From Rhizobium sp. Q54 (lineage in GTDB: Bacteria; Pseudomonadota; Alphaproteobacteria; Rhizobiales; Xanthobacteraceae), in contig CAMAWF010000004.1 of NCBI GenBank assembly GCA_945861895.1, forward strand, positions 1 to 64,000: DNA of 64,000 nt, in the 5' to 3' direction. How positions within the stretch are numbered: the first letter of the stretch is position 1; every line of letters starts with the position of its first letter. This document shows positions 46,920 through 56,614 of this stretch, piece after piece. The notes under the pieces are model-generated. The model was given only the letters and a program-made list of their open reading frames with translations. It had not been told where the DNA came from and did not search any database. Made by a program: the position numbers and the translations under genes.

Positions 46920-49900
46920 ATGCGGATCGAACGTCGCTACACCAAGGACGGCCAGTCGGCCTATGCCGGCATCGCGTTCCGGCACACCACCAGCGAGATC
47001 AAGAATCCCGACGGCTCGGTGGTGTTCCGGCTCGAGAATGTCGAGGTGCCGGAATTCTGGTCGCAGGTGGCCTCCGACGTGCTGGCGCAGAAATATTTCC
47101 GCAAGGCCGGCGTCCCTGCCCGGCTGAAAAAGTTCGAAGAAAATTCCATTCCCTCGTTCCTCTGGCGCTCGGTCGCCGACGAGGACGCGCTGGCCGCGCT
47201 GCCCGAGAAGGAGCGCATCGTCGGCGAGCATTCCTGCAAGCAGGTGTTCGATCGTCTGGCCGGCACCTGGACCTATTGGGGCTGGAAGGGCGGCTATTTC
47301 GACGGCGAGGAGGACGCGCAGGCGTTCTTCGACGAGCTGCGCCACATGCTGGCGATGCAGATGTGCGCGCCGAATTCGCCGCAATGGTTCAACACCGGAC
47401 TGCACTGGGCCTATGGCATCGACGGGCCGAGCCAGGGCCACTACTACGTCGATTTCCAGACCGGCAAGCTGACCAAATCGAAATCCTCCTACGAACATCC
47501 GCAGCCGCACGCCTGCTTCATCCAGTCGATCTCCGACGACCTCGTCAACGAAGGCGGGATCATGGATCTGTGGGTGCGCGAGGCGCGGCTGTTCAAATAC
47601 GGCTCCGGCACCGGCTCGAAGTTCTCGCTGTTGCGCGGGGAAGGCGAAAAATTATCCGGCGGCGGCAGGTCGTCCGGGCTGATGAGCTTTTTGAAGATCG
47701 GCGACCGCGCGGCGGGCGCGATCAAGTCCGGCGGCACCACGCGCCGCGCGGCAAAAATGGTGGTGGTCGACGCCGACCATCCCGACATCGAGCAATATAT
47801 CGACTGGAAGGTGACCGAAGAGCAGAAGGTGGCGGCGCTCGTCACCGGCTCGAAGATCAACCAGAAGCATCTGCGCGCGGTGCTCAAGGCCTGCGTGAAT
47901 TGCGAGGGAAGCGGCGACGACTGCTTTTCACCGGAGAAAAACCCCGCGCTCAAGCGCGAGATCAGGGCGGCGCGCAAGAACCACGTGCCCGACAACATCA
48001 TCCAGCGCGTGATCCAGTTCGCCAAGCAGGGCTACACCGACATCGAATTCCCGGTCTACGACACCGATTGGGATTCGGATGCCTATCTCACCGTGTCGGG
48101 GCAGAACTCCAACAATTCGGTGCGCGTCACCGACGAGTTCCTCAAGGCGGTGGAATCCGACGCCAACTGGGATTTGTTCTGGCGCACCAAGGGCCGCAAG
48201 ATCGCCAAGACCGTGAAGGCGCGCGAGCTGTGGGAAAAAATCGGCTACGCCGCCTGGGCCTGCGCCGATCCCGGCTTGCAATTCCACACCACGGTGAACG
48301 ACTGGCACACGTGTCCCGCCTCGGGCCCGATCCGCGCGTCGAACCCGTGCTCGGAATACATGTTCCTCGACGACACCGCGTGCAATCTCGCGTCGTTGAA
48401 CTTGCTCACCTTCTACACCCCCACCCCTCCCTCCCCCGCAAGCGGGGGAGGGTTAGGGAGGGGGTCCTTCGACATCGAGAGCTACGAACACGCGGTGCGG
48501 CTGTGGACGGTGGTGCTGGAAATCTCCGTGCTGATGGCGCAGTTCCCGTCCAAGCAGATCGCGGAACTGTCCTACGAATTCCGCACGCTCGGACTTGGCT
48601 ATGCCAATATCGGCGGGCTGCTGATGTCGTCGGGCATTTCCTACGACAGCGAATCCGGCCGCGCCATTTGCGGCGCGCTCACCGCCATCATGACCGGTGT
48701 GAGCTACGCAACGTCAGCCGAAATGGCGCAAAAGCTCGGCCCCTTCCCCGGCTTCAAGAAAAACCGCGAGCACATGCTGCGCGTGATGCGCAACCACCGC
48801 CGCGCGGCGCATGGCGAGCGCACCGGCTTCGAAAAAGTGGCGACGCCGCCGGTGCCGCTCGATCACGGCTCCTGCCAAGCCCTGGGTGAAAACGGGCAGA
48901 AACTGGTCGCGCACGCGCGCGCCGCCTGGGACCGCGCGCTGGCGCTCGGCGAGCAGCACGGCTATCGCAACGCGCAGGCGACCGTCATTGCGCCGACCGG
49001 CACCATCGGCCTGGTGATGGATTGCGACACCACCGGCATCGAGCCGGACTTCGCGCTGGTGAAATTCAAGAAGCTCGCCGGCGGCGGCTATTTCAAGATC
49101 ATCAACCGCGCGGTGCCGGAGGCGCTGCGCACGCTCGGCTACAAGGAAAGCGAGATCGCCGAGATCGAGGCCTATGCCGTCGGCCACGGCGGGCTCGGCC
49201 AGGCGCCGGCGATCAACCACAGCACGCTGAAGACCAAAGGCTTCACCGACGAAGCCATCGCCAAGGTGGAAAAAGCGCTGCCGACCGCCTTCGACATCAA
49301 GTTTGCGTTTAACAAATGGACGCTGGGCGAGGACTTCTGCGTCAAGACGCTCGCCATTCCCGCCGACGCGCTCGCCGTGCCCAATTTCGACCTGCTGGCG
49401 CATATCGGCTTCGGCAAGCGCGAGATCGAGGCGGCGAACATTCACGTCTGCGGCGCCATGACGGTGGAAGGCGCGCCGCATCTCAAGCCCGAGCACTATC
49501 CGGTGTTCGACTGCGCCAATCCGTGCGGCCGCACGGGAAAACGCTATCTCTCGGTGCAAAGCCACATCCAGATGATGGCGGCGGCGCAGCCGTTCATCTC
49601 CGGCGCCATTTCCAAGACCATCAACATGCCGAACGAGGCTTCGGTTGCGGACTGCAAGTCGGCTTATCTGATGTCGTGGAAGCTGGCGCTCAAGGCCAAC
49701 GCGCTCTACCGCGACGGCTCGAAGCTTTCGCAGCCGCTCAATTCGCAGCTCATCGCCGATGACGACGACGAGGACGATACGGTCGAGGCCTTCCTCGACA
49801 AGCCGATGGCGGCGCGCGTCACTGGCCTGGCCGAAAAAGTCGTCGAGCGCATTGTCGAGCGCATCACTGTGCTGCGCGAGCGCGAGAAGCTGCCCGACCG

Positions 49901-50684
49901 GCGCAAGGGCTATACCCAGAAAGCCGTGGTCGGCGGACATAAAGTGTATTTGCGCACCGGCGAATACGACGATGGCCGCTTGGGCGAAATCTTCATCGAC
50001 ATGCACAAGGAAGGCGCTGCGTTGCGCTCATTCATCAACAATTTCGCCATCGCGGTGTCGCTCGGCCTGCAATACGGCGTGCCGCTGGAGGAATATGTCG
50101 ACGCCTTCACCTTCACGCGCTTCGAGCCGGCAGGCCCCGTGCAGGGCAACGACTCGATCAAATACGCAACCTCGATTCTCGACTACGTGTTCCGCGAGCT
50201 GGCGGTGTCGTACCAGTCGCGCTTCGACCTCGCCCATGTGGACCCGAGCGAGGCCGGCTTCGACGCGCTCGGCAAAGGCACCGAGGAAGGCAAGCCGGCT
50301 TCCGCCGCGAGCTACGTCTCCAAGGGCCTCACGCGCAGCCGCACCGATCGTCTGCAAGTGGTCGGCGGCGCTTCACCCTCACCTGCAGGGGGAGGGTCGG
50401 CCGGTGAAACCGGCCGGGGTGGGGTGAGCAACATCACGGCGTTCTCTGGCGCCGCAACCGCCCTCAAACCCGAGCCGGAAGCCAAGCTCTCGCCCACCGA
50501 GAAGCTGGAAGCCCTGCAATGGACCAACGCCGACGCCCGCGCGCTCGCCACCGAAAAGCGCATGGAAGCCAAAGCCAAGGGCTATGAGGGCGAAGCCTGC
50601 GGCGAGTGCGGGAATTTCACTTTGGTGCGGAATGGGACGTGCATGAAGTGCGATACGTGCGGATCGACGACGGGGTGTTCGTGA
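46920..50684 (+). CDS. nrdJ: vitamin B12-dependent (class II) ribonucleotide reductase
   Basis: 1254 residues. Reduces ribonucleotides to deoxyribonucleotides with adenosylcobalamin. The active-site NxCxE appears as [15 protein letters not shown] (about 473), with [39 protein letters not shown], and the redox-active Cys-rich C-terminal tail CGECGNF...[14 protein letters not shown]. Two extra segments not found in homologues known to me, rich in Pro/Gly (about 499-516 and 1151-1170), are translated palindromic repeats inserted in frame. The tail (about residues 1219-1254) recurs twice downstream. Confidence 0.95.
48416..48466 (+). repeat. palindromic repeat inserted in frame in nrdJ (first)
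   Basis: A perfect 11-base inverted pair CCCTCCCCCGC/GCGGGGGAGGG with a 2-base loop (48429-48452), flanked by CCTCCC/GGGAGG. It encodes [15 protein letters not shown] and splits the NrdJ sequence between LLTFY and FDIESYEH without stopping the frame. The same sequence type is a well-known intergenic repeat of alphaproteobacteria. Confidence 0.9.
50371..50428 (+). repeat. palindromic repeat inserted in frame in nrdJ (second)
   Basis: Outer pair TCACCC.../...GGGGTGAG and a perfect inner hairpin CGGCCGGT-GAA-ACCGGCCG (50398-50416). It encodes [19 protein letters not shown] within the linker between the catalytic barrel and the Cys-rich tail. Again a common intergenic repeat type, here kept in frame. 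Confidence 0.85.
50574..50684 (+). repeat. nrdJ tail, copy 1 (in the gene)
   Basis: 111 bases encoding the last 36 NrdJ residues and stop, from [15 protein letters not shown] to STTGCS. It is the reference for the displaced copies at 51188-51298 and about 51837-51931. Confidence 0.95.
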
Positions 50685-50727
50685 AGGTCAATTATCTCAC
50701 GAAGTGAGTAACAAATTGGGTGCGTCA

Positions 50728-51158
50728 ATGGGTGCAATACAGGACTTGCTGCAGGAGGTGCCGCTATCTGCGGTCCTAAAAGAGCGCGTTGCCCTCGCGG
50801 AACAAAAATACGAAAGGGCGATGAGGGAAAACGCAGATCTCAAGCAACGGATACAGACACTAGAAGAAGAGAATGCCGGTCTCCGCACCCAAATCCCGCA
50901 ACAAGAACGGGCCGAAAGTTTGGACGCCATACCGTGCGGGTTCTCGTGCACCTTTTCCGGGCCGAGGGGGATGATCGCGATGTCGGGATAACGGCCCGAA
51001 TGCTGCAGATGGAAAAGGGAATCGTGAAGTACCACCTTGACCAACTCAAGGATAAGGGTTTCGCGACGTGCACCGGTGGAAATTACGTCAGCGGTCAGGT
51101 CTACTGGGCCCTAACACCGGCGGGCCGAAAATATGCCGTCCAACAGAAACTGGTATAA
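50728..51158 (+). pseudogene. coiled-coil plus winged-helix protein gene with a frameshift
   Basis: First frame, from ATG 50728: MGAIQDLLQEVPLS, then a coiled coil with LAEQKYERAMRENADLKQR. Near 50930-50936 the coding sense moves to another frame: VRVLVHLFRAEGDD, ITARMLQMEKGIVKYHLDQLKDKGF, YWALTPAGRKYAVQQ. Together these match the layout of a known group of small proteins with an N-terminal coiled coil and a C-terminal winged-helix DNA-binding domain. One base gained or lost near 50931 would join them. Either a recent pseudogene or a sequencing error. It lies between nrdJ tail copies 1 and 2. Confidence 0.7.
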
Positions 51159-51187
51159 CGCCAAAAATTGGGACACGCGAAAAACAG

Positions 51188-51298
51188 GCCAAGGACTATG
51201 AGGGCGAAGCCTGCGGCGAATGCGGGAATTTCACTTTGGTGCGGAATGGGACGTGCATGAAGTGCGATACCTGCGGGAGCACCACGGGGTGTTCGTGA
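51188..51298 (+). repeat. displaced nrdJ tail, copy 2
   Basis: 111 bases, same length as copy 1, encoding the same tail with one residue change (AKDYEGE for AKGYEGE). Other base differences are synonymous: GAG/GAA for Glu, and GGG AGC ACC for GGA TCG ACG in Gly-Ser-Thr. No start codon of its own; it is not joined to any gene. Confidence 0.95.
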
Positions 51299-51330
51299 GA
51301 ACGTGAACGCGACCCACTCAGGATAGCGAT

Positions 51331-51588
51331 ATGCCAGTCGTTTTCCGCGAGAGTGGCCTGCGTTATTTCTTCTTTTCGAACGAGGGCGCTCCGCGTGAAG
51401 CGCCGCATATCCACGTGATAGGCGGCGGCCGGGATGCCAAGATTTGGCTGGAGCCAGAGGCGTCCATCGCAGACAGCTACGGCTTCAATTCAAGGGAACT
51501 CTCTGCTATTCTGCTTACCGTTACGAATAATCGCGATCGCATCTTAAAGGCTTGGCATGAGCATTTCGGCAACGGCCGTCCGCTTTGA
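51331..51588 (+). CDS. DUF4160 protein
   Basis: 85 residues. DUF4160 hallmarks: MPVVFRESGLRYFFFSNEG, PREAPHIHV, AKIWLEPEASIADSYGFNSRELSAI, ILKAWHEHFG. Commonly encoded directly before a DUF2442 gene and suspected to form a toxin-antitoxin-like pair, though activity is unproven. AGGA seven bases before the ATG. Overlaps the next gene by 32 bases. Confidence 0.92.
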   Translation: MPVVFRESGLRYFFFSNEGAPREAPHIHVIGGGRDAKIWLEPEASIADSYGFNSRELSAILLTVTNNRDRILKAWHEHFGNGRPL

Positions 51589-51805
51589 CGACGACACCAT
51601 GTGGGTCGACCTGACCGACGGCCGCACGCTCGGCGTGCCGCTGGCATGGTTTCCGCGCCTGCTTCGCGCAACGCCAGCCGAACGCGAACGCGTCGAACTA
51701 AGCCGCGTCGGCCTTCATTGGGAAAATATCGACGAGGATATTTCCATCGCCGCTCTGCTCGCCGGACGCGGCGACACGACTAGGCAGGAAGAACACGCGG
51801 CCTGA
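51557..51805 (+). CDS. DUF2442 protein
   Basis: 82 residues. DUF2442: VRFDDDTMWVDLTDGRTLGVPLAWFPRLLRATPAER, then HWENIDEDISIAALLAG. Partner of the DUF4160 gene, overlapping it by 32 bases. In such pairs the DUF2442 protein may be the DNA-binding or neutralising partner; this is by analogy only. The pair lies between nrdJ tail copies 2 and 3. Confidence 0.92.
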   Translation: MSISATAVRFDDDTMWVDLTDGRTLGVPLAWFPRLLRATPAERERVELSRVGLHWENIDEDISIAALLAGRGDTTRQEEHAA

Positions 51806-51836
51806 AGCTGCGCCGACTCGCGGCAAGGGTGTCGCA

Positions 51837-51931
51837 AGGCGAGCCTTGCGGCGATGCAGAAATTTCATTTTGGTGAAAAGGAAACGCGCATGAAGTGCGA
51901 TACGTGTGAAAACGCGACGGGGTGCAGCTGA
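51837..51931 (+). repeat. decayed nrdJ tail, copy 3
   Basis: Aligns with the nrdJ tail from GEACGEC to the stop, with a one-base deletion after TGCGGCGA and several substitutions. The end is well kept: MKCDTC...ATGCS then TGA, with Ser as AGC rather than TCG. The last base of the stop is the first base of the following gene's ATG (TGATG). Confidence 0.85.
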
Positions 51932-52086
51932 TGCCGCAGTTTAGCCGAAGCACGCTCAACCTCATCGTCGGCATTCTTATCATCGTGGTTCTGGTGATCG
52001 GCTATCAACTCTACCAGGACCGCCAGCAGCCGAAGGGCGTGCAGATCAACGTCGGCCCGGGCGGAATATCGATCAAGGAGAAATAG
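51931..52086 (+). CDS. small single-span membrane protein (51 aa)
   Basis: 51 residues: MPQFSRSTLNLIVGILIIV begins a single membrane helix (about 9-27), then a short charged loop YQDRQQPK and the C-terminal GVQINVGPGGISIKEK. Small proteins with one helix and a GV(Q/E)I(N/K)(V/I)G..G(I/V)SI ending recur in Bradyrhizobium-type genomes, so I consider it real although short. Start overlaps the stop of nrdJ tail copy 3, suggesting this gene once followed an intact nrdJ directly. A palindromic repeat and a terminator follow. Confidence 0.72.
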   Translation: MPQFSRSTLNLIVGILIIVVLVIGYQLYQDRQQPKGVQINVGPGGISIKEK

Positions 52087-52106
52087 CGTGTAGCTAATCT
52101 TCTCCG

Positions 52107-52138
52107 CGTCATGGCCGGGCTTGACCCGGCCATCCACG
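52107..52138. repeat. palindromic repeat GTCATGGCCGGG/CCCGGCCATCCAC
   Basis: ATGGCCGGGC-TTGA-CCCGGCCAT is a near-perfect hairpin. The same family appears at 54295-54326 and 56615-56643. It is a common Rhizobiales intergenic repeat. Confidence 0.85.
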
Positions 52139-52145
52139 ACTTTAG

Positions 52146-52170
52146 GGCGGCCCACAGGCCGCCTTTTTTA
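52146..52170 (+). terminator. Rho-independent terminator
   Basis: GGCGGCC-CACA-GGCCGCC, a perfect 7-bp stem with a 4-base loop, followed by TTTTTTA. It closes the transcription unit ending with the 51-aa membrane protein. Confidence 0.88.
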
Positions 52171-52199
52171 TATGATCAAGTGAATCGGGCGCTTTTAAA

Positions 52200-52997
52200 A
52201 TGTATGACGTATTCGGAGATGAAAGTTGCGGATCTACACACGCAGCATATGGGTTAGTGGTCTTCGAGAACGCTCAGACTGGGCGAGCAGAAAAAATATT
52301 AGGTCAAGTGAAGGCGAAGTTCGGCGGTACGCCAGCCGATGCGTTGCACTGCCGGGAATTATTCGCGGGCGACGCGAGACGAAAGACCAAGTGGGCGCAT
52401 CTGGATCAAACCGCCGTTCACCAGCTTTATGAATGTCTTTTCCGCGAAATGAGCGGCGTTATAAAACGCTCTATCGCGGCAATCGCATGTAAAGCTGAGT
52501 TTCCAGCTTCACTACCTGCTGCCGAAATGGATCACATCGATCCAAACTATATTGGCCCTCGTCCTGGCCTCGCATCCGTAAACGTAAGTGAAAAATTCCT
52601 TGCAACTCAATGCGCGATGGGTGCTTTGATACCCGTCTCCCGTGACATTGGTCCAACGAATTTCCGTTTTTGGCCTGATCCTGATCGCACGATGATTGAT
52701 TGGTTCGACGGCAGACGATCAATAGAAAGGGCGCTCAGCGCATTCATCCAAACCGGTCCAAATCGAGAGGCTCTTCGTCTCCAAATTAAGCGAAGCGAGA
52801 ATAATAAACCGAAATTATTAGAACTCGCGGATTGTATCGCCTACGTCGCACAGCGACGAGCAAACACGGATAGGCATTCTCCGAATGGACGACGATTTAA
52901 TTCTCTCATGAGAACGATCGATCCGATGCAGGTTGAGTTCACGACGGGAATTGACGGTGGGTTTCAGTGCAAAGTACCGAACGCCTCAATTATCTAA
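52200..52997 (+). CDS. DUF3800 protein
   Basis: 265 residues. DUF3800 signs: MYDVFGDESCG at the N-terminus (acidic DES) and ELADCIAYVAQRR near the C-terminus, an RNase H-like fold with a putative metal site. The family is frequent on phages and mobile islands and near defence genes; function unknown. Codon usage is clearly more AT-rich than neighbours (TTA Leu, ATT, AAA), indicating recent transfer. No obvious ribosome site. Confidence 0.82.
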   Translation: MYDVFGDESCGSTHAAYGLVVFENAQTGRAEKILGQVKAKFGGTPADALHCRELFAGDARRKTKWAHLDQTAVHQLYECLFREMSGVIKRSIAAIACKAEFPASLPAAEMDHIDPNYIGPRPGLASVNVSEKFLATQCAMGALIPVSRDIGPTNFRFWPDPDRTMIDWFDGRRSIERALSAFIQTGPNREALRLQIKRSENNKPKLLELADCIAYVAQRRANTDRHSPNGRRFNSLMRTIDPMQVEFTTGIDGGFQCKVPNASII

Positions 52998-53028
52998 TAT
53001 TTCGAATTTCGCGCACTTCGTGCCTTCC

Positions 53029-53165
53029 TACTCCTCCTTCTCCGTCGTGAAAAACAGCGGATAGCCCTTCGCCTTTCCCAGTTCGGTCGCCTCCTTCGCC
53101 TTGGTCTCCGCCACGTCGCGCGTGAAGATCGCGCTACCCGCAGGCGCTCGTCTCTTTGCCCGCGC
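53029..53165 (-). repeat. displaced clpS 3' end, copy A
   Basis: Read on the minus strand it encodes TRDVAETKAKEATELGKAKG and YPLFFTTEKEE then stop, identical to the ClpS C-terminus. Base differences in this part are synonymous (GAG/GAA, GGA/GGC, CTG/TTG, ACG/ACC). Beyond 53130 similarity to clpS fades but remains visible to about 53165. No start codon; a fragment. Confidence 0.93.
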
Positions 53166-53183
53166 TGCGAGACCGACTATAAT
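53156..53183 (+). promoter_or_regulatory. leaderless promoter of toxin-antitoxin operon 1
   Basis: A consensus -10 TATAAT at 53178-53183 lies six bases before the antitoxin ATG, so transcription should begin at or within a base of the A of ATG. A -35-like TTGCCC sits 16 bases upstream. There is no ribosome site. Confidence 0.7.
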
Positions 53184-53189
53184 TGAGAC

Positions 53190-53426
53190 ATGAAAACCAA
53201 ACGCCTGATCCAGGCCCTAGAACGCGTCGATGCTTGGCCCGCTTATGCGCAGGACGAGTTGGCCGAAATCGCGCGCGACATCGACGAGAGCCTTGCCAAA
53301 GGCGAGTATGAGCCGACCCCGGCCGAGCTTGCCGGCATCGATCGCGGTTTGCGTGACGCCGCCGATGGCCGCTTCGCGACGGACGCCCAAGCCGAAGCTG
53401 CGTTCGTTAAACTCCGCAGCGTATGA
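53190..53426 (+). CDS. type II antitoxin (addiction module, operon 1)
   Basis: 78 residues, acidic: LIQALERVDAWPAYAQDELAEIARDIDESLAKG, then EYEPTPAELAGIDRGLRDAADGRFATDAQAEAAFVKLR. This layout, helical N-terminus with W-P-x-x-x-Q-x-E-L and a C-terminal stretch binding the toxin, recurs in the antitoxins of operons 2 and 3. Its stop overlaps the toxin start by four bases (ATGA). Confidence 0.88.
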   Translation: MKTKRLIQALERVDAWPAYAQDELAEIARDIDESLAKGEYEPTPAELAGIDRGLRDAADGRFATDAQAEAAFVKLRSV

Positions 53427-53716
53427 AGGTTGTCTACACCGATGCCGCGCTCCGCGATCTCGACGACATTACCATTTGGCTGACGGCCCATTATCCCGGA
53501 CTTGGCGCCGCCGTGGAACGGCGCCTGCGGATCGTGGTTGCCCACATCGCGCGCTGGCCGGACAGCATGCGTCCGTCCGCTCATCGCTCCGGCGTTCGCG
53601 TGGCATTGCTCGGCCGCTTTCCGTATAAGATTTTCTATCGCGTGAGCGGCGAAGCGGTCGAGATATTGCATATCCACCATGCAGCACGCGAGCCGTGGGA
53701 TGAGGAGCGGCAATAG
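53423..53716 (+). CDS. RelE/ParE family toxin (operon 1)
   Basis: 97 residues. RelE/ParE fold: MKVVYTDAALRDLDDITIWL, RIVVAHIARWPDSMRP, RVALLGRFPYKIFYRVSGEAVEILHIHHAAREPWD. ParE-type toxins block gyrase; RelE types cut mRNA; the call between them is not possible from sequence alone. Coupled to the antitoxin. Confidence 0.92.
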   Translation: MKVVYTDAALRDLDDITIWLTAHYPGLGAAVERRLRIVVAHIARWPDSMRPSAHRSGVRVALLGRFPYKIFYRVSGEAVEILHIHHAAREPWDEERQ

Positions 53717-53717
53717 T

Positions 53718-53747
53718 CCCTACTCCCCGTGTAGACCGCGATCACGC
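53718..53747 (-). repeat. deleted clpS fragment, copy C
   Basis: CCCTACTCC (the end of clpS read on the plus strand) is joined directly to GTGTAGACCGCGATCACGC, which in clpS lies about 95 bases further in (56360-56378). So this is a clpS 3' fragment with an internal deletion. It lies between toxin-antitoxin operons 1 and 2. Confidence 0.75.
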
Positions 53748-53752
53748 CTATC

Positions 53753-54049
53753 CTACTCATCCTGCGCCCGTTCGATCCACGGCCTGCGCGCGGCGTGACG
53801 AATGTGGATGATCTCGATTGCGTTCTCGCCGGGACTGTAGAAAATCTTGTAGCGATACCGCCCGAGGATTTTCACGCGGATGCCGGGATCGGACGTGCGC
53901 GGCGACGCGAGCGGATGCTCGGCGATGTCGTCGATGGCTTTGCGGATGGCTTTGAGCACGTTGACCGCGCCGGTCGGGCTGCGCTCATCGATAAAACGGA
54001 AGATGTTTTCGAGGTCCGCCAGCGCCAGCGCGCGATAGCGGACTTTCAT
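53753..54049 (-). CDS. RelE/ParE family toxin (operon 2)
   Basis: 98 residues: MKVRYRALALADLENIFRFIDE, AIRKAIDDIAEHPLASP, IRVKILGRYRYKIFYSPGENAIEIIHIRHAARRPW. Clear ParE-type toxin, related to but distinct from those of operons 1 and 3. Start overlaps the antitoxin stop by four bases. Confidence 0.93.
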   Translation of the reverse strand: MKVRYRALALADLENIFRFIDERSPTGAVNVLKAIRKAIDDIAEHPLASPRTSDPGIRVKILGRYRYKIFYSPGENAIEIIHIRHAARRPWIERAQDE

Positions 54050-54264
54050 GCAAGGCCGTGACGTTTCCAGAAAGCAGCCGCTTCGTCGTTCGACGCAAAC
54101 GCGCCGCGGCGCGCGTCGGCGATGGCGGCGCGTTCATCCTCGCTCAACACGTAAACGCCGGTGCGGCGCGCTTCGATCTCGCGCGCGAGTTCCGCCAGCT
54201 CCTCCTGGTCCTCTTCGGGCCAATGGCTGACCTTTTTAAGAATCTCTTTTGCCGCAGGGCTCAT
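54046..54264 (-). CDS. type II antitoxin (operon 2)
   Basis: 72 residues: MSPAAKEILKKVSHWPEEDQEELAELAREIEARRTG, then VLSEDERAAIADARRGAFASNDEAAAFWKRHGL. Same antitoxin family as operons 1 and 3 (W-P, E-x-L-A-E-x-A-x-E-I). Precedes and overlaps its toxin. Confidence 0.9.
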   Translation of the reverse strand: MSPAAKEILKKVSHWPEEDQEELAELAREIEARRTGVYVLSEDERAAIADARRGAFASNDEAAAFWKRHGLA

Positions 54265-54270
54265 GCAAAT

Positions 54271-54299
54271 TCTATATCACATCAAGAACGTCCGGTCAT
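54271..54299 (-). promoter_or_regulatory. leaderless promoter of toxin-antitoxin operon 2
   Basis: On the minus strand TGATATAGA (extended -10, TATAGA at 54276-54271) ends six bases before the antitoxin ATG. A -35-like ATGACC is 17 bases upstream and lies within a palindromic repeat. Confidence 0.6.
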
Positions 54300-54326
54300 C
54301 GCCGGGCAACCGGATCCGGCAATGAC
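54295..54326. repeat. palindromic repeat GTCATCGCCGG/CCGGCAATGAC
   Basis: GTCAT-CGCCGG...CCGGCA-ATGAC inverted pair; a shorter relative of the repeat at 52107-52138. It lies between the divergently... same-strand operons 2 and 3 and overlaps the promoter of operon 2. Confidence 0.7.
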
Positions 54327-54353
54327 AAGGAAGAGGGCAAAACTCTTCTCGTC

Positions 54354-54656
54354 TTAACGGCCCTCATCCTCGCCTCTCCACGGCTGCCGGCGCGCGCCGT
54401 GGAGGATGCGCAGAATCGTCACCTCGCCGGCTCCGGCCTCGTAATAAATCACGTAAGGATAACGCACGAGCGGAACCCGGCGCACGGCTTCGCGCCCGGC
54501 GACCTGCTGCGCGCCTTCCGGATATTGTCCGATCCGTTCGATTGCCCGGCGGATTTGCGCATGAACGCGCGCGGAGCCGTCTGGGTTGTTCGGCGTGATA
54601 AAACCAAGAATGTCGTCCAATTCGGCAAGTGCCTGCCGGGAAAAGACGACCCTCAT
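54354..54656 (-). CDS. RelE/ParE family toxin (operon 3)
   Basis: 100 residues: MRVVFSRQALAELDDILGFI, RVHAQIRRAIERIGQYPEGAQQV, RRVPLVRYPYVIYYEAGAGEVTILRILHGARRQPW. RelE/ParE superfamily. Start overlaps the antitoxin stop by four bases. Confidence 0.93.
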   Translation of the reverse strand: MRVVFSRQALAELDDILGFITPNNPDGSARVHAQIRRAIERIGQYPEGAQQVAGREAVRRVPLVRYPYVIYYEAGAGEVTILRILHGARRQPWRGEDEGR

Positions 54657-54886
54657 GCGCGGCGGTGCTTAGCGAAGACCGCCTCGACCTCCGCATCGGT
54701 CGCCACTTCGCCGCGCCGCACGGCCGCGATCGCTTCGTCGATCGCATGCAGTTCATCGGCGGTCGCGTGGTAGACATCGCCCTTGAGCGCTTGGTCGATC
54801 TCAAGCGCGATCTCGGCAAGTTCGGCCTGCGCCGCCGGGGGCCAGGTTTCCGCGCGTTGCAGCAGTTCTCTCAGCATCTTCGTCAT
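54653..54886 (-). CDS. type II antitoxin (operon 3)
   Basis: 77 residues: MTKMLRELLQRAETWPPAAQAELAEIALEIDQALKG, then ATADELHAIDEAIAAVRRGEVATDAEVEAVFAKHR. Same family as the antitoxins of operons 1 and 2. The ATG at 54886 is chosen because it matches that family and has a -10 box six bases upstream; the in-frame extension beyond it is a fragment of a higA 3' end. Confidence 0.9.
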   Translation of the reverse strand: MTKMLRELLQRAETWPPAAQAELAEIALEIDQALKGDVYHATADELHAIDEAIAAVRRGEVATDAEVEAVFAKHRRA

Positions 54887-54892
54887 GTTTAA

Positions 54893-54898
54893 TTCATA
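54893..54898 (-). promoter_or_regulatory. leaderless -10 box of toxin-antitoxin operon 3
   Basis: TATGAA preceded by TGC (extended -10, minus strand) and ending six bases before the antitoxin ATG. No convincing -35 at the usual distance; the extended -10 may suffice. Confidence 0.5.
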
Positions 54899-54937
54899 GC
54901 ACGTTGGCGGGCACAAAACCATCGGAGCGTTCGATCG

Positions 54938-54999
54938 CGCCGCCCGCGTTTTCGCGGTCGGTATCTTCGCCAACATCTTATTGAGTGCGCGCTTTGTGC
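54938..54999 (-). repeat. displaced higA 3' end
   Basis: On the minus strand it reads RALNKMLAKIPTAKTRAA, matching RALKKVVAKIPTAKAKAA at the end of higA (55541-55600). The stop codon is lost and a small indel lies upstream. Fragment only, located between the XRE gene and operon 3. Confidence 0.8.
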
Positions 55000-55004
55000 G
55001 TTGC

Positions 55005-55241
55005 CTAGCCGCGCTTGCCGTCGTCGAGAAGTTCGGCGACGCGCGTGTCTAGAGCCAGCGCAATCCGTTGTAGCGCGTCGAGCGTCACGTTGCTCTTGCT
55101 GGATTCGATTTCGCTGATATGCGCCTGACGCAACTTGGCGGCGTCGGCGAGCCCTTCCTGAGTCAAACCCTTCGCCAGGCGCCGCCGGCGCACGTTGCGC
55201 GCAAGAACGTTCCGCGCAGCCTGAAGGTCACCCCGTGCCAT
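55005..55241 (-). CDS. XRE-family HTH regulator
   Basis: 78 residues. Helix-turn-helix of the Cro/C1 type: LARNVRRRRLAKGLTQEGLADAAKLRQAHISEIESSKSNVTLDALQRIALALDTRVAELL. Single-domain DNA-binding protein; could repress itself or the neighbouring divergent small gene. Sits between the higA fragment and the small hypothetical gene. Confidence 0.92.
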   Translation of the reverse strand: MARGDLQAARNVLARNVRRRRLAKGLTQEGLADAAKLRQAHISEIESSKSNVTLDALQRIALALDTRVAELLDDGKRG

Positions 55242-55324
55242 CCGGCAGGGTGGACCATCAGATTCGTCGCCACTCTATACGATTTATAGTATATAAGGAA
55301 CACCTACTGAACCTTCCCGAACGA

Positions 55325-55528
55325 ATGTGGATTGAAATTTTGCGGATGCGAACATACGATGAACCGTATATAGCGAATGAGCGCCGACTGATCCGCGCGC
55401 GGGTCGCTGAATTGGCCACGCGGGCGGAGCGCGCCGGACTTCCGCTGGCCGCATATTTTCTGGAACTCGCCGCGCTCGAATTGAAGGACGCGGATGCCCG
55501 GGCCAAGTTTACGGCCGGGCCGGCATGA
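55325..55528 (+). CDS. small hypothetical protein
   Basis: 67 residues: MWIEILRMRTYDEPYIANERRLIRARVAELATRAERAGLPLAAYFLELAALELKDADARA. Two amphipathic helices. Proteins with the pattern IRxRxxEL...AGLPxxAYxLELAALE occur as short alphaproteobacterial hypotheticals, which is why I list it. Start uncertain (55325 or 55349). The promoter would be in the AT-rich stretch near 55270-55295, shared with the divergent XRE gene. Confidence 0.5.
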   Translation: MWIEILRMRTYDEPYIANERRLIRARVAELATRAERAGLPLAAYFLELAALELKDADARAKFTAGPA

Positions 55529-55540
55529 CGATTGAGAAGG

Positions 55541-55879
55541 TCACGCCGCCTTCGCCTTCGCGGTCGGTATCTTCGCCACCACTTTCTTGAGCGCGCGCTC
55601 GGCGTGCCACAGGTCGTAGGCCTGCTGCATCCTCAGCCACAGGCCGGGGCCGTTGCCGCAAAACTTGCCGAGCCGCACCGCCATCTCGGGCGTCACCGGC
55701 GCCTTCTCCGCCAAAATTCGGTGCAGGTGCTGACGCGTGACGCCGAGCTTCTTGGCCACCGTCATCACCGGCTCGCCGATTGCCGGCAGCACGTCCTCGC
55801 GCAAAAGCGCACCCGGATGCGTCGGCACGCGATCGGGGTCAGGCCGTCGGGCGGGAAGCTCCCGGTTTTTAATCGTCAT
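55541..55879 (-). CDS. higA: HigA-family antitoxin
   Basis: 112 residues. HigA/VapI HTH: HPGALLREDVLPAIGEPVMTVAKKLGVTRQHLHRILAEKAPVTPEMAVRLGKFCGNGPGLWLRMQQAYDLWHA. Represses its own operon and neutralises HigB. GGAGG six bases before the ATG at 55879. Follows higB in the usual toxin-first order. Its 3' end has a displaced copy at about 54938-54999. Confidence 0.95.
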   Translation of the reverse strand: MTIKNRELPARRPDPDRVPTHPGALLREDVLPAIGEPVMTVAKKLGVTRQHLHRILAEKAPVTPEMAVRLGKFCGNGPGLWLRMQQAYDLWHAERALKKVVAKIPTAKAKAA

Positions 55880-55926
55880 TCGATCCTCCAAATCGGCCGG
55901 TCCATTCCAGCCGAACGCTCTACGCC

Positions 55927-56202
55927 CTAGTGGTACTGCTCAAAATCGACCCTGTAGGCTTCGCAATTTTCAAATTCGAATGTAATGCACCATGGTCCGT
56001 TCACATGCACCGTATAACGCTGCGGCTTTCCGTGCAGTGCATGAAAATTGAAACCTTGCGTATTCATATCCTCCGGGCGCGCCGCGCGATCCAGCGCATC
56101 AAGTCGGCGCACACATCGCTCATGCAGTGATTTCTGAATCCGTGCCGTCGTCCCCTTTTCAAACAGGTCCTTCAGACCTTTGTGCAGAAAACTCCGGATC
56201 AT
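55927..56202 (-). CDS. higB: HigB toxin (RelE superfamily)
   Basis: 91 residues: MIRSFLHKGLKDLFEKGTTARI, RRLDALDRAARPEDMNTQGFNFHALHG, RYTVHVNGPWCITFEFENCEAYRVDFEQYH. Ribosome-dependent mRNA endonuclease by family. Transcribed from a promoter embedded in an inverted repeat (56210-56250). Confidence 0.95.
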   Translation of the reverse strand: MIRSFLHKGLKDLFEKGTTARIQKSLHERCVRRLDALDRAARPEDMNTQGFNFHALHGKPQRYTVHVNGPWCITFEFENCEAYRVDFEQYH

Positions 56203-56208
56203 CCGATA

Positions 56209-56250
56209 AATGTAATCTATTGCACGACAGTGTCAAGTATTAGATTACAT
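56209..56250 (-). promoter_or_regulatory. higBA promoter and operator palindrome
   Basis: Minus strand: -35 TTGACA (56236-56231), 16-base spacer, -10 TACATT (56214-56209), then six bases to the higB ATG, so again leaderless. A perfect 10-base inverted repeat, ATGTAATCTA at 56210-56219 and TAGATTACAT at 56241-56250, brackets the -35 and covers the -10. This is the expected HigA operator. Confidence 0.85.
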
Positions 56251-56264
56251 ATCGAGCGTTCCCC

Positions 56265-56573
56265 CTACTCCTCCTTCTCCGTCGTGAAAAACAACGGATA
56301 GCCCTTCGCCTTGCCCAGTTCGGTCGCTTCCTTCGCCTTGGTCTCCGCCACGTCGCGGGTGTAGACCGCGATCACGCAGGCGCCTCTCTGATGCGCCGTC
56401 ATCATCACCCGATAGGCTTGGGCTTCGTTCATGCGGAACACCGCCTTGAGCACCTGCACCACGAATTCGCGCGGCGTGAAGTCGTCATTGAGCAAAATGA
56501 CCTTCCACAGCGGCGGGCGCTCGGTTTTCGTCCGCGTTTTGGTGCGCGGCTTGACCAGGGTTTTCTGCGCCAT
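56265..56573 (-). CDS. clpS: ClpS adaptor of the Clp protease
   Basis: 102 residues. Delivers N-end-rule substrates to ClpAP. Shows PPLWKVILLNDDFTPREFVVQVL and MMTAHQRGACVIAVYTRDVAETKA, with the substrate-pocket residues (NDD, T, MxxxH) present. Start at MAQKTLV (56573). clpA, usual downstream neighbour, is not found after it; higBA and the other cassettes are there instead. Its 3' end recurs at 53029-53165 and partly at 53718-53747. Confidence 0.95.
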   Translation of the reverse strand: MAQKTLVKPRTKTRTKTERPPLWKVILLNDDFTPREFVVQVLKAVFRMNEAQAYRVMMTAHQRGACVIAVYTRDVAETKAKEATELGKAKGYPLFFTTEKEE

Positions 56574-56614
56574 GCGGCATCCGTCGTCCGAGGTTGATGA
56601 CAAGATTTTATCGC

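Follow-up and report, generated by a model that had tools for sequence, protein, structure and literature searches.

In Rhizobium sp. Q54 (Xanthobacteraceae in the GTDB taxonomy) and related bacteria, small accessory genes, often of the toxin-antitoxin or phage-defence type, sit at the 3' ends of housekeeping genes; the host gene stays whole and a truncated second copy of its end follows the accessory genes, an arrangement that looks like the footprint of gene entry without an integrase. The case was found in a 64,000-nucleotide stretch of DNA, hereafter the window (positions 1 to 64,000 of contig CAMAWF010000004.1, assembly GCA_945861895.1; the genome comprises 3,767,078 bases in 194 contigs), where the convergent genes nrdJ (+) and clpS (-) enclose 5.6 kb of small genes. 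The accessory genes are here called cassettes, and the second copies of the host gene ends displaced tails. Both nrdJ and clpS possess at least one such tail, cassette-free nrdJ sites occur in relatives, and the same topology recurs at several other genes. The features of the region, including open reading frames (ORFs), are as follows.

46920..50684, + strand: nrdJ, class II ribonucleotide reductase, host gene (Pfam PF02867, PF08471, PF12637)
50574..50684, + strand: intact nrdJ tail, tail 1 (repeat search)
50685..51187, + strand: cassette 1, overlapping winged-helix-like ORFs 50704-50991 and 50934-51158 (sub-threshold HTH_5 match only)
51188..51298, + strand: displaced nrdJ tail 2 (93% identical; codon changes 5 synonymous, 1 non-synonymous)
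51331..51805, + strand: cassette 2, DUF4160 (51331-51588, PF13711) and DUF2442 (51557-51805, PF10387)
51838..51931, + strand: eroded nrdJ tail 3, displaced and probably ancestral (78%; adjoins the ancestral neighbour)
51922..52086, + strand: small membrane-protein-like ORF, ancestral neighbour 3' of nrdJ (directly 3' of nrdJ in loci L034 and L042)
52200..52997, + strand: 265-aa ORF without Pfam or PADLOC match
53027..53133, - strand: displaced clpS tail (94%)
53190..53716, + strand: antitoxin-like ORF (53190-53426, no Pfam match) and ParE toxin (53423-53716, PF05016)
53719..53747, - strand: possible clpS tail remnant with internal deletion (20-nt exact match and reading by eye)
53753..54264, - strand: ParE toxin (53753-54049, PF05016) and antitoxin-like ORF (54046-54264, no match)
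54354..54976, - strand: ParE toxin (54354-54656, PF05016) and antitoxin-like ORF (54653-54976, no match)
54935..54993, - strand: possible displaced higA tail (83%)
55005..55241, - strand: XRE-type helix-turn-helix (HTH) gene (PF01381)
55541..55891, - strand: higA-like antitoxin, third host gene (sub-threshold HTH_3 match and position beside HigB; tail 55541-55599)
55927..56202, - strand: HigB toxin (PF05015)
56265..56603, - strand: clpS, host gene (PF02617; tail 56264-56370)

The tail-bracketed layout at nrdJ is real. The intact tail (50574-50684) and the copy at 51188-51298 are identical at 103 of 111 nt (93%; E 8.9e-42 in a search of the whole genome), and the same search finds a third copy at 51838-51931 (78%; E 1.7e-11). 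The order from nrdJ is tail 1, the winged-helix-like cassette, tail 2, the DUF4160/DUF2442 pair, tail 3 and the small membrane-protein-like ORF. In the first cassette the initial annotation had recognised a winged-helix gene, an assignment that now corresponds to a sub-threshold HTH_5 match; the DUF4160 and DUF2442 proteins, the three ParE toxins, HigB, the XRE protein, ClpS and the class II ribonucleotide reductase are backed by Pfam. Cassette-free sites, which the initial annotation had proposed to look for, do exist: the small membrane gene lies directly 3' of nrdJ in L034 and L042, and in G020 nrdJ runs into an ORF related to it (G and L numbers are our handles for genomes and loci). Since the eroded tail 3 adjoins this same small membrane gene, the simplest reading is that tail 3 is the ancestral nrdJ end; the cassettes would then have been inserted between it and the nrdJ body, the winged-helix cassette last. 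The distance separating nrdJ from clpS is about 1.0 kb in G020 and reaches about 11 kb elsewhere in the genus. As a separate observation, the nrdJ protein of the window (46920-50684) contains Pro/Gly-rich stretches resembling palindromic repeats read in frame.

At the other end of the interval, the clpS tail (56264-56370) is 94% identical to its copy at 53027-53133 (protein match E 7.4e-16). Leftward from clpS follow HigB/HigA, the XRE gene with a small ORF, the possible higA tail and two ParE pairs, and beyond these a possible clpS remnant, the opposite-strand ParE pair and the displaced clpS tail. The initial annotation had read this side as clpS with a displaced tail and an inner, deleted one, and had added higA as a third host of the same topology. 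The displaced clpS tail stands, together with the nrdJ copies; the inner remnant (approximately 53719-53747) is weak, because it consists of a 20-nt exact match to the clpS gene of a relative extended by eye, and higA is a weaker third case than nrdJ and clpS. Its tail (55541-55599) matches the copy at 54935-54993 with 83% identity over 59 nt (E 3e-13 in a 6-kb search), and judging from the sequence the copy could be either an old remnant or a common antitoxin-end sequence. A direct repeat was found at none of 29 clpS loci of relatives, a sample separate from the window's own locus and searched in the same way as the DUF2442 loci described below. One clpS "tail", at G014:C113, was dropped, the contig ends having identical sequence, which we read as an assembly overlap. 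In G031 a short clpS tail lies beside an SDR-like ORF (L145:4079-4159, -), the closest full-length match to the ClpS of the window there being only 41%; the picture resembles a deletion of all of the gene except its tail.

The nrdJ arrangement is found across the family. A search of 341 genomes of the family with the 35-residue nrdJ tail gave a match in 290 and two or more matches in 17, of which 16 (all but G000) were searched again together with G064. A second tail on the same strand and no more than 2.3 kb from the intact gene is present in 11 of the 341 (G000, G022, G067, G086, G098, G109, G147, G243, G259, G310 and G342), and at pccB, as detailed below, displaced tails occur in at least five of 43 genomes of the genus; the initial annotation had suggested that orphan tails could be sought in other genomes. 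In G067 (L243:1472-1661, -) about 88 bp of the nrdJ tail are simply repeated in tandem, without a cassette. For the G243 case clean empty sites are available in G291, G305 and G197: there the two query copies match one and the same tail, and the sequence downstream of it is shared with G243. In G146, G162, G171, G179, G277 and G352 the second match lies far off or on another contig, and that of G277, located within another nrdJ-like ORF on a different contig, was rejected; an apparent eroded tail after DUF2442 in G018 was likewise rejected, its alignment score (21) being below the best of 300 shuffles (27), and weak matches in G064, L058 and L111 were left out of the counts. DUF4160 and/or DUF2442 genes also follow nrdJ in other genomes with no recognised tail behind them (e.g. 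G013, G018, G060, G179, L085 and L089); in G060, by eye, the old nrdJ end is reduced to its final 9 nt, after which the sequence is the same as downstream in L042. One nrdJ region matching those of alphaproteobacteria, L074, comes from a record titled Frankia sp. RB7, a label that may be wrong.

Other host genes show the same pattern; the names pccB, sucB, rpoD and hisG, and VapC-like for a PIN gene, were assigned in part from Pfam domain matches. DUF2442 genes occur at 26 loci in 19 of the 43 genomes of the genus, and 11 of these loci have a direct repeat, compared with 3 of 29 nrdJ loci and 4 of 30 ParE loci in the same search. On inspection, four of the 11 repeats proved to be host tails, namely those of nrdJ in the window, pccB (G031), rpoD (G060) and sucB (G062). 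Others are a terminator-like region (L275) and, at L265, the end of one DUF2442 gene with its downstream region, repeated around another DUF4160/DUF2442 pair as if a cassette gene had itself served as host; L258, L266, L272 and L274, with repeats of the repetitive extragenic palindromic (REP) type, and L263, where the repeat is not flanking, were dropped. A repeated element of about 90 bp in L262 (query positions 1964-2052) matches most genomes of the genus among the matches listed. In other families of the order 3 of 28 DUF2442 loci have repeats. One of them, L450 of G385, comprises rpoD, DUF4160/DUF2442 and a 98% displaced tail, so that displaced rpoD tails are known from two bacterial families (G060 and G385); L440 (G412), with a CRISPR-type repeat array beside the DUF2442 match, and L430, where the repeat is unclear, were dropped as host tails. 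Displaced pccB tails were found in G031 (two), G010 (two), G025, G007 and G019. Weak pccB tails in G022 and G060 and a hisG tail match in G064 were left out of the counts.

Two surveys of displaced gene tails and heads were made. The first, of 800 kb with 683 genes (codon-scored ORFs), returned five rows with a tail copy downstream, four with a tail copy upstream (the reverse view of copies and arrays), one with a gene head downstream and none with a head upstream. Three of the five tail-downstream rows were discarded after visual inspection, being tandem arrays or paralogues; the survey yielded hisG of G004, followed by a DUF2971 gene and with clean empty sites in G026 and G028, where the tail is single, and manC of G010, whose cassette holds a Gly-rich ORF of 980 aa, both manC and this ORF being named by eye only. 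The second survey covered 1.73 Mb and 1267 genes in loci picked around nrdJ and clpS, and gave six tail-downstream, two tail-upstream, four head-downstream and four head-upstream rows. Its tail rows include nrdJ of G022, and that of L059 resembles a receiver-domain paralogue. The tail pair of an EamA gene in L079 has nine synonymous and no non-synonymous changes; L071, L081 (8 synonymous, 7 non-synonymous) and L086 (1 and 1) are further candidates that were looked at only, and two weaker ones have tails of 198 and 218 nt.

The cargo is varied. Pfam matches among the cassette proteins scanned are DUF4160, DUF2442, ParE, HigB, BrnT, PIN, SLATT, ThsB_TIR, SIR2_2, Peptidase_M78, DUF2971 and cupin, and include no restriction-modification (RM) unit. 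At nrdJ the cassettes hold BrnT in G086, SLATT and ThsB-TIR (by both Pfam and PADLOC) as well as DUF2442 in G109, DUF4160/DUF2442 in G098, two ORFs without Pfam match in G243 and a Lys-rich ORF in G022; in G259, G342, G147 and G310 the cargo is an IrrE-like gene whose reading frame continues into the displaced tail, identified by Pfam in G259 and by similarity to G259 in the other three. Cassettes at pccB carry SIR2-like (G010), PIN (G025) and cupin (G019) genes. As a side observation, the IrrE-like (Peptidase_M78) ORF directly 3' of nrdJ (L245:4150-4809, -; also L247, L249 and L250) runs in frame through the displaced tail with the CxxC pairs kept, and is possibly a new gene with a zinc-ribbon-like end gained from that tail. 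The 16 inserts measured (manC of G010 and L079 are outside this set) span 327-3130 bp, and the open stretches of more than 300 aa in them are the SLATT, SIR2-like and DUF2971 proteins, all others being below 240 aa. No recombinase family match was obtained among the scanned cassette proteins, some insert ORFs being unscanned, with room for a small resolvase there; no tRNA or tmRNA was predicted in the window, nor any Rfam match at gathering thresholds. The absence of integrase and tRNA reported in the initial annotation is confirmed to this extent.

How the tails came to be paired can be judged from the differences between them. In 21 pairs (59-162 nt aligned; partly non-independent, some sharing a gene or a genome), 114 of 165 changed codons are synonymous (69%) and 51 non-synonymous. 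The neutral expectation is about 26% synonymous. Where a dead copy lies next to a conserved one, some 41% would be expected, an estimate of our own on the assumption that the neutral rate is the same in the two copies and that the intact one is conserved; the excess over the latter figure has a binomial p of 3e-13, calculated over partly dependent pairs. In comparisons between species, intact tails gave 166 of 240 and 114 of 179 synonymous (the pccB control takes the best match per genome, possibly a displaced tail in some). With a synonymous share like that, displaced pairs look like orthologues of different genomes, and several tails therefore look imported; duplication in place would lead to amino-acid changes gathering in the dead copy. 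The two hisG tails of G004, for example, are 10% different, with 15 synonymous and one non-synonymous codon changes, and each of eight relatives has the base of the displaced copy at 4-10 of the 16 differing sites. At nrdJ of the window, two of seven distinct relatives (L042 and G027 are the same sequence and were counted once) side with the displaced tail (L042 and G060), three with the intact one (L034, G063 and G033), and two are near even; by this split both tails carry alleles found in other species. Import in some cases appears well supported by these comparisons, and for other pairs duplication in place may apply.

We narrowly favour, with confidence only just above even, an import by homology-facilitated illegitimate recombination, the DNA being anchored by homology on one side and joined illegitimately at the far end, with onward spread via the tails. 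Incoming DNA from a relative would carry the 3' end of a host gene followed by an accessory gene, and the homologous gene end would anchor it by ordinary RecA recombination, so that the host gene stays whole and takes over part of the donor tail. The far end would join illegitimately in or near the recipient's own tail, which would be left displaced behind the cassette, and repeated events would stack cassettes and tails. The two bracketing tails would then be usable as homology arms, allowing the cassette to spread to relatives with differing downstream neighbours. G029, where the DUF4160/DUF2442 pair lies after pccB and the 6 kb fetched contains no second tail, presents the state expected of a donor, and in G031 the old pccB tail lies within a few bases 3' of the DUF4160/DUF2442 pair; such a layout would result if one end were anchored by homology and the other joined illegitimately. 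The initial annotation had offered a common insertion mechanism targeting gene ends or repeated recombination bringing a substitute tail. A tendency towards gene ends is backed by the empty sites and by recurrence at nrdJ, pccB, rpoD, sucB, hisG and manC; the need for a dedicated machine is unsupported, and recombination is the better of the two options, with some pairs fitting duplication in place.

Several observations weigh against import by one-sided anchoring, beyond the partial non-independence of the pairs. Plain homologous recombination does not predict a tail range of 59-162 nt, several displaced nrdJ tails begin near the codons A-K-G-Y, as would fit a site-specific event or one inherited insertion, and some pairs are not import-like: clpS (4 synonymous, 4 non-synonymous) and higA (3 and 5) in the window, rpoD of G385 (0 and 2) and nrdJ of G022 (7 and 8). 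The intact tail is favoured by all eight relatives for pccB of G031 and by seven of eight for nrdJ of G243, there mostly by three sites to two, a pattern that drift in the displaced copy would produce in both cases. This siding of relatives, together with the rpoD tails of G385, which differ by two amino-acid changes only, and the bare tandem duplication in G067, speaks for an unknown transposition-like insertion that duplicates some 100 bp of its target, insertions near gene ends surviving when one copy keeps the gene whole. We regard this as a real but rather unlikely alternative, given the overall synonymous excess (114 of 165 compared with an estimated 41%) and hisG tails about as divergent as the species.

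The recurrent tail starts would suit small integrative elements with attachment sites in gene 3' ends, moved by a site-specific recombinase acting in trans: displaced nrdJ tails of several genomes begin near the same codons, rpoD tails of the two families begin close together by eye, and targeting and restoring a gene end is typical of elements that use tRNA genes. Yet tail starts differ in G109, G086, G098 and G060, the hosts are several unrelated genes with unrelated cargo, no recombinase family was matched among the cassette proteins scanned (not every ORF), and the 16 inserts hold no unexplained open stretch above 240 aa; such elements are improbable. Finally, tandem duplications, deletions and REP-element recombination could be unrelated accidents that look alike because gene ends tolerate them. 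REP-type repeats at 4 of the 11 DUF2442 loci with repeats are in keeping with this, as are displaced heads upstream of genes (four rows in the 1.73-Mb survey, one of them at least 80 nt). Against it stand the clean empty sites, the same gene struck repeatedly with different cassettes, and the excess of tails downstream over heads upstream: at 80 nt or more, both surveys together give 7 to 1 (one-sided chance 0.035), or 6 to 1 (0.06) without the doubtful L059 row, by our own arithmetic and leaving out nrdJ and tandem arrays. The tail excess is suggestive only; we hold accidents to be very improbable.

A more far-reaching proposal, which we put forward tentatively and consider doubtful, is that tail-bracketed cassettes form a distinct class of integrase-free mobile units with two host-gene tails as portable homology arms. 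Such units would exit, as circles or linear fragments made of a tail and a cassette, and host RecA would insert them at the corresponding gene end of another species, toxin-antitoxin and defence cargo being favoured as resistant to loss; the carriers would be housekeeping genes such as nrdJ, pccB, rpoD and hisG.

Integrative elements target the 3' ends of tRNA genes, guaA, prfC and other genes and restore the gene end on insertion. The cassettes resemble them in that the gene end is restored and the old end displaced, and are unlike them in having no recognised recombinase, in their small size (0.3-3.1 kb in the 16 measured) and in their use of several host genes.

The initial annotation knew of no named system with this behaviour, a claim that is not supported in view of two precedents. 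The first is the insertion of RM systems with target duplications of about 100 bp (Nobusato et al. 2000; Furuta et al. 2010, via the review PMC3874152), the same insertion with a long target duplication being reported for Helicobacter pylori with CGAT (PMC1643837); movement of RM systems accompanied by short duplications at insertion sequences (PMC3031569) and an integrative and conjugative element of H. pylori surrounded by a long duplication, one of whose junctions is homologous and the other non-homologous (PMC4615327), are also on record. Like the RM insertions, ours are small self-contained addiction-type cassettes with no linked mobile element, flanked by host direct repeats of about 100 bp (59-162 nt aligned in the 21 pairs), and a single repeat copy is found at the empty site in G291, G305 and G197 (nrdJ of G243) and in G026 and G028 (hisG of G004). 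They are unlike them in their cargo, which comprises toxin-antitoxin and defence genes among others, in their repeat, which in all retained cases is the 3' end of a gene, and in that the copies often differ like alleles of different species. Reports of toxin-antitoxin or defence cassettes bracketed by housekeeping-gene tails were not found in titles and the beginnings of abstracts among the papers listed, a search in which most subscription journals were out of reach and which does not establish absence.

The second precedent is provided by the type VI secretion system (T6SS)/Rhs loci, for which a conserved upstream anchor and an illegitimate far end have been proposed, the old 3' ends being moved downstream and stacked (Kirchberger et al. 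2017, PMC5361080). The cassettes share this displacement and stacking of old gene ends; in the T6SS/Rhs loci it is the toxin gene or variable end itself that is displaced, whereas here the product of the housekeeping host is unchanged and the cargo lies outside the gene. More generally, hotspots of accessory genes are often without mobility genes, recombination taking place at flanking core genes, and how genes enter such hotspots is described as an unsettled question (Oliveira et al. 2017, PMC5635113). That model employs two flanking core genes, whereas the displaced tail here points to a one-sided event and could serve as the second arm. Displaced tails next to ordinary genes are traces of single insertion events that can be counted, and they make entry into hotspots testable by genome comparison, which could address which of the tails is foreign, how long the anchor is, and which gene ends and cargo are used.

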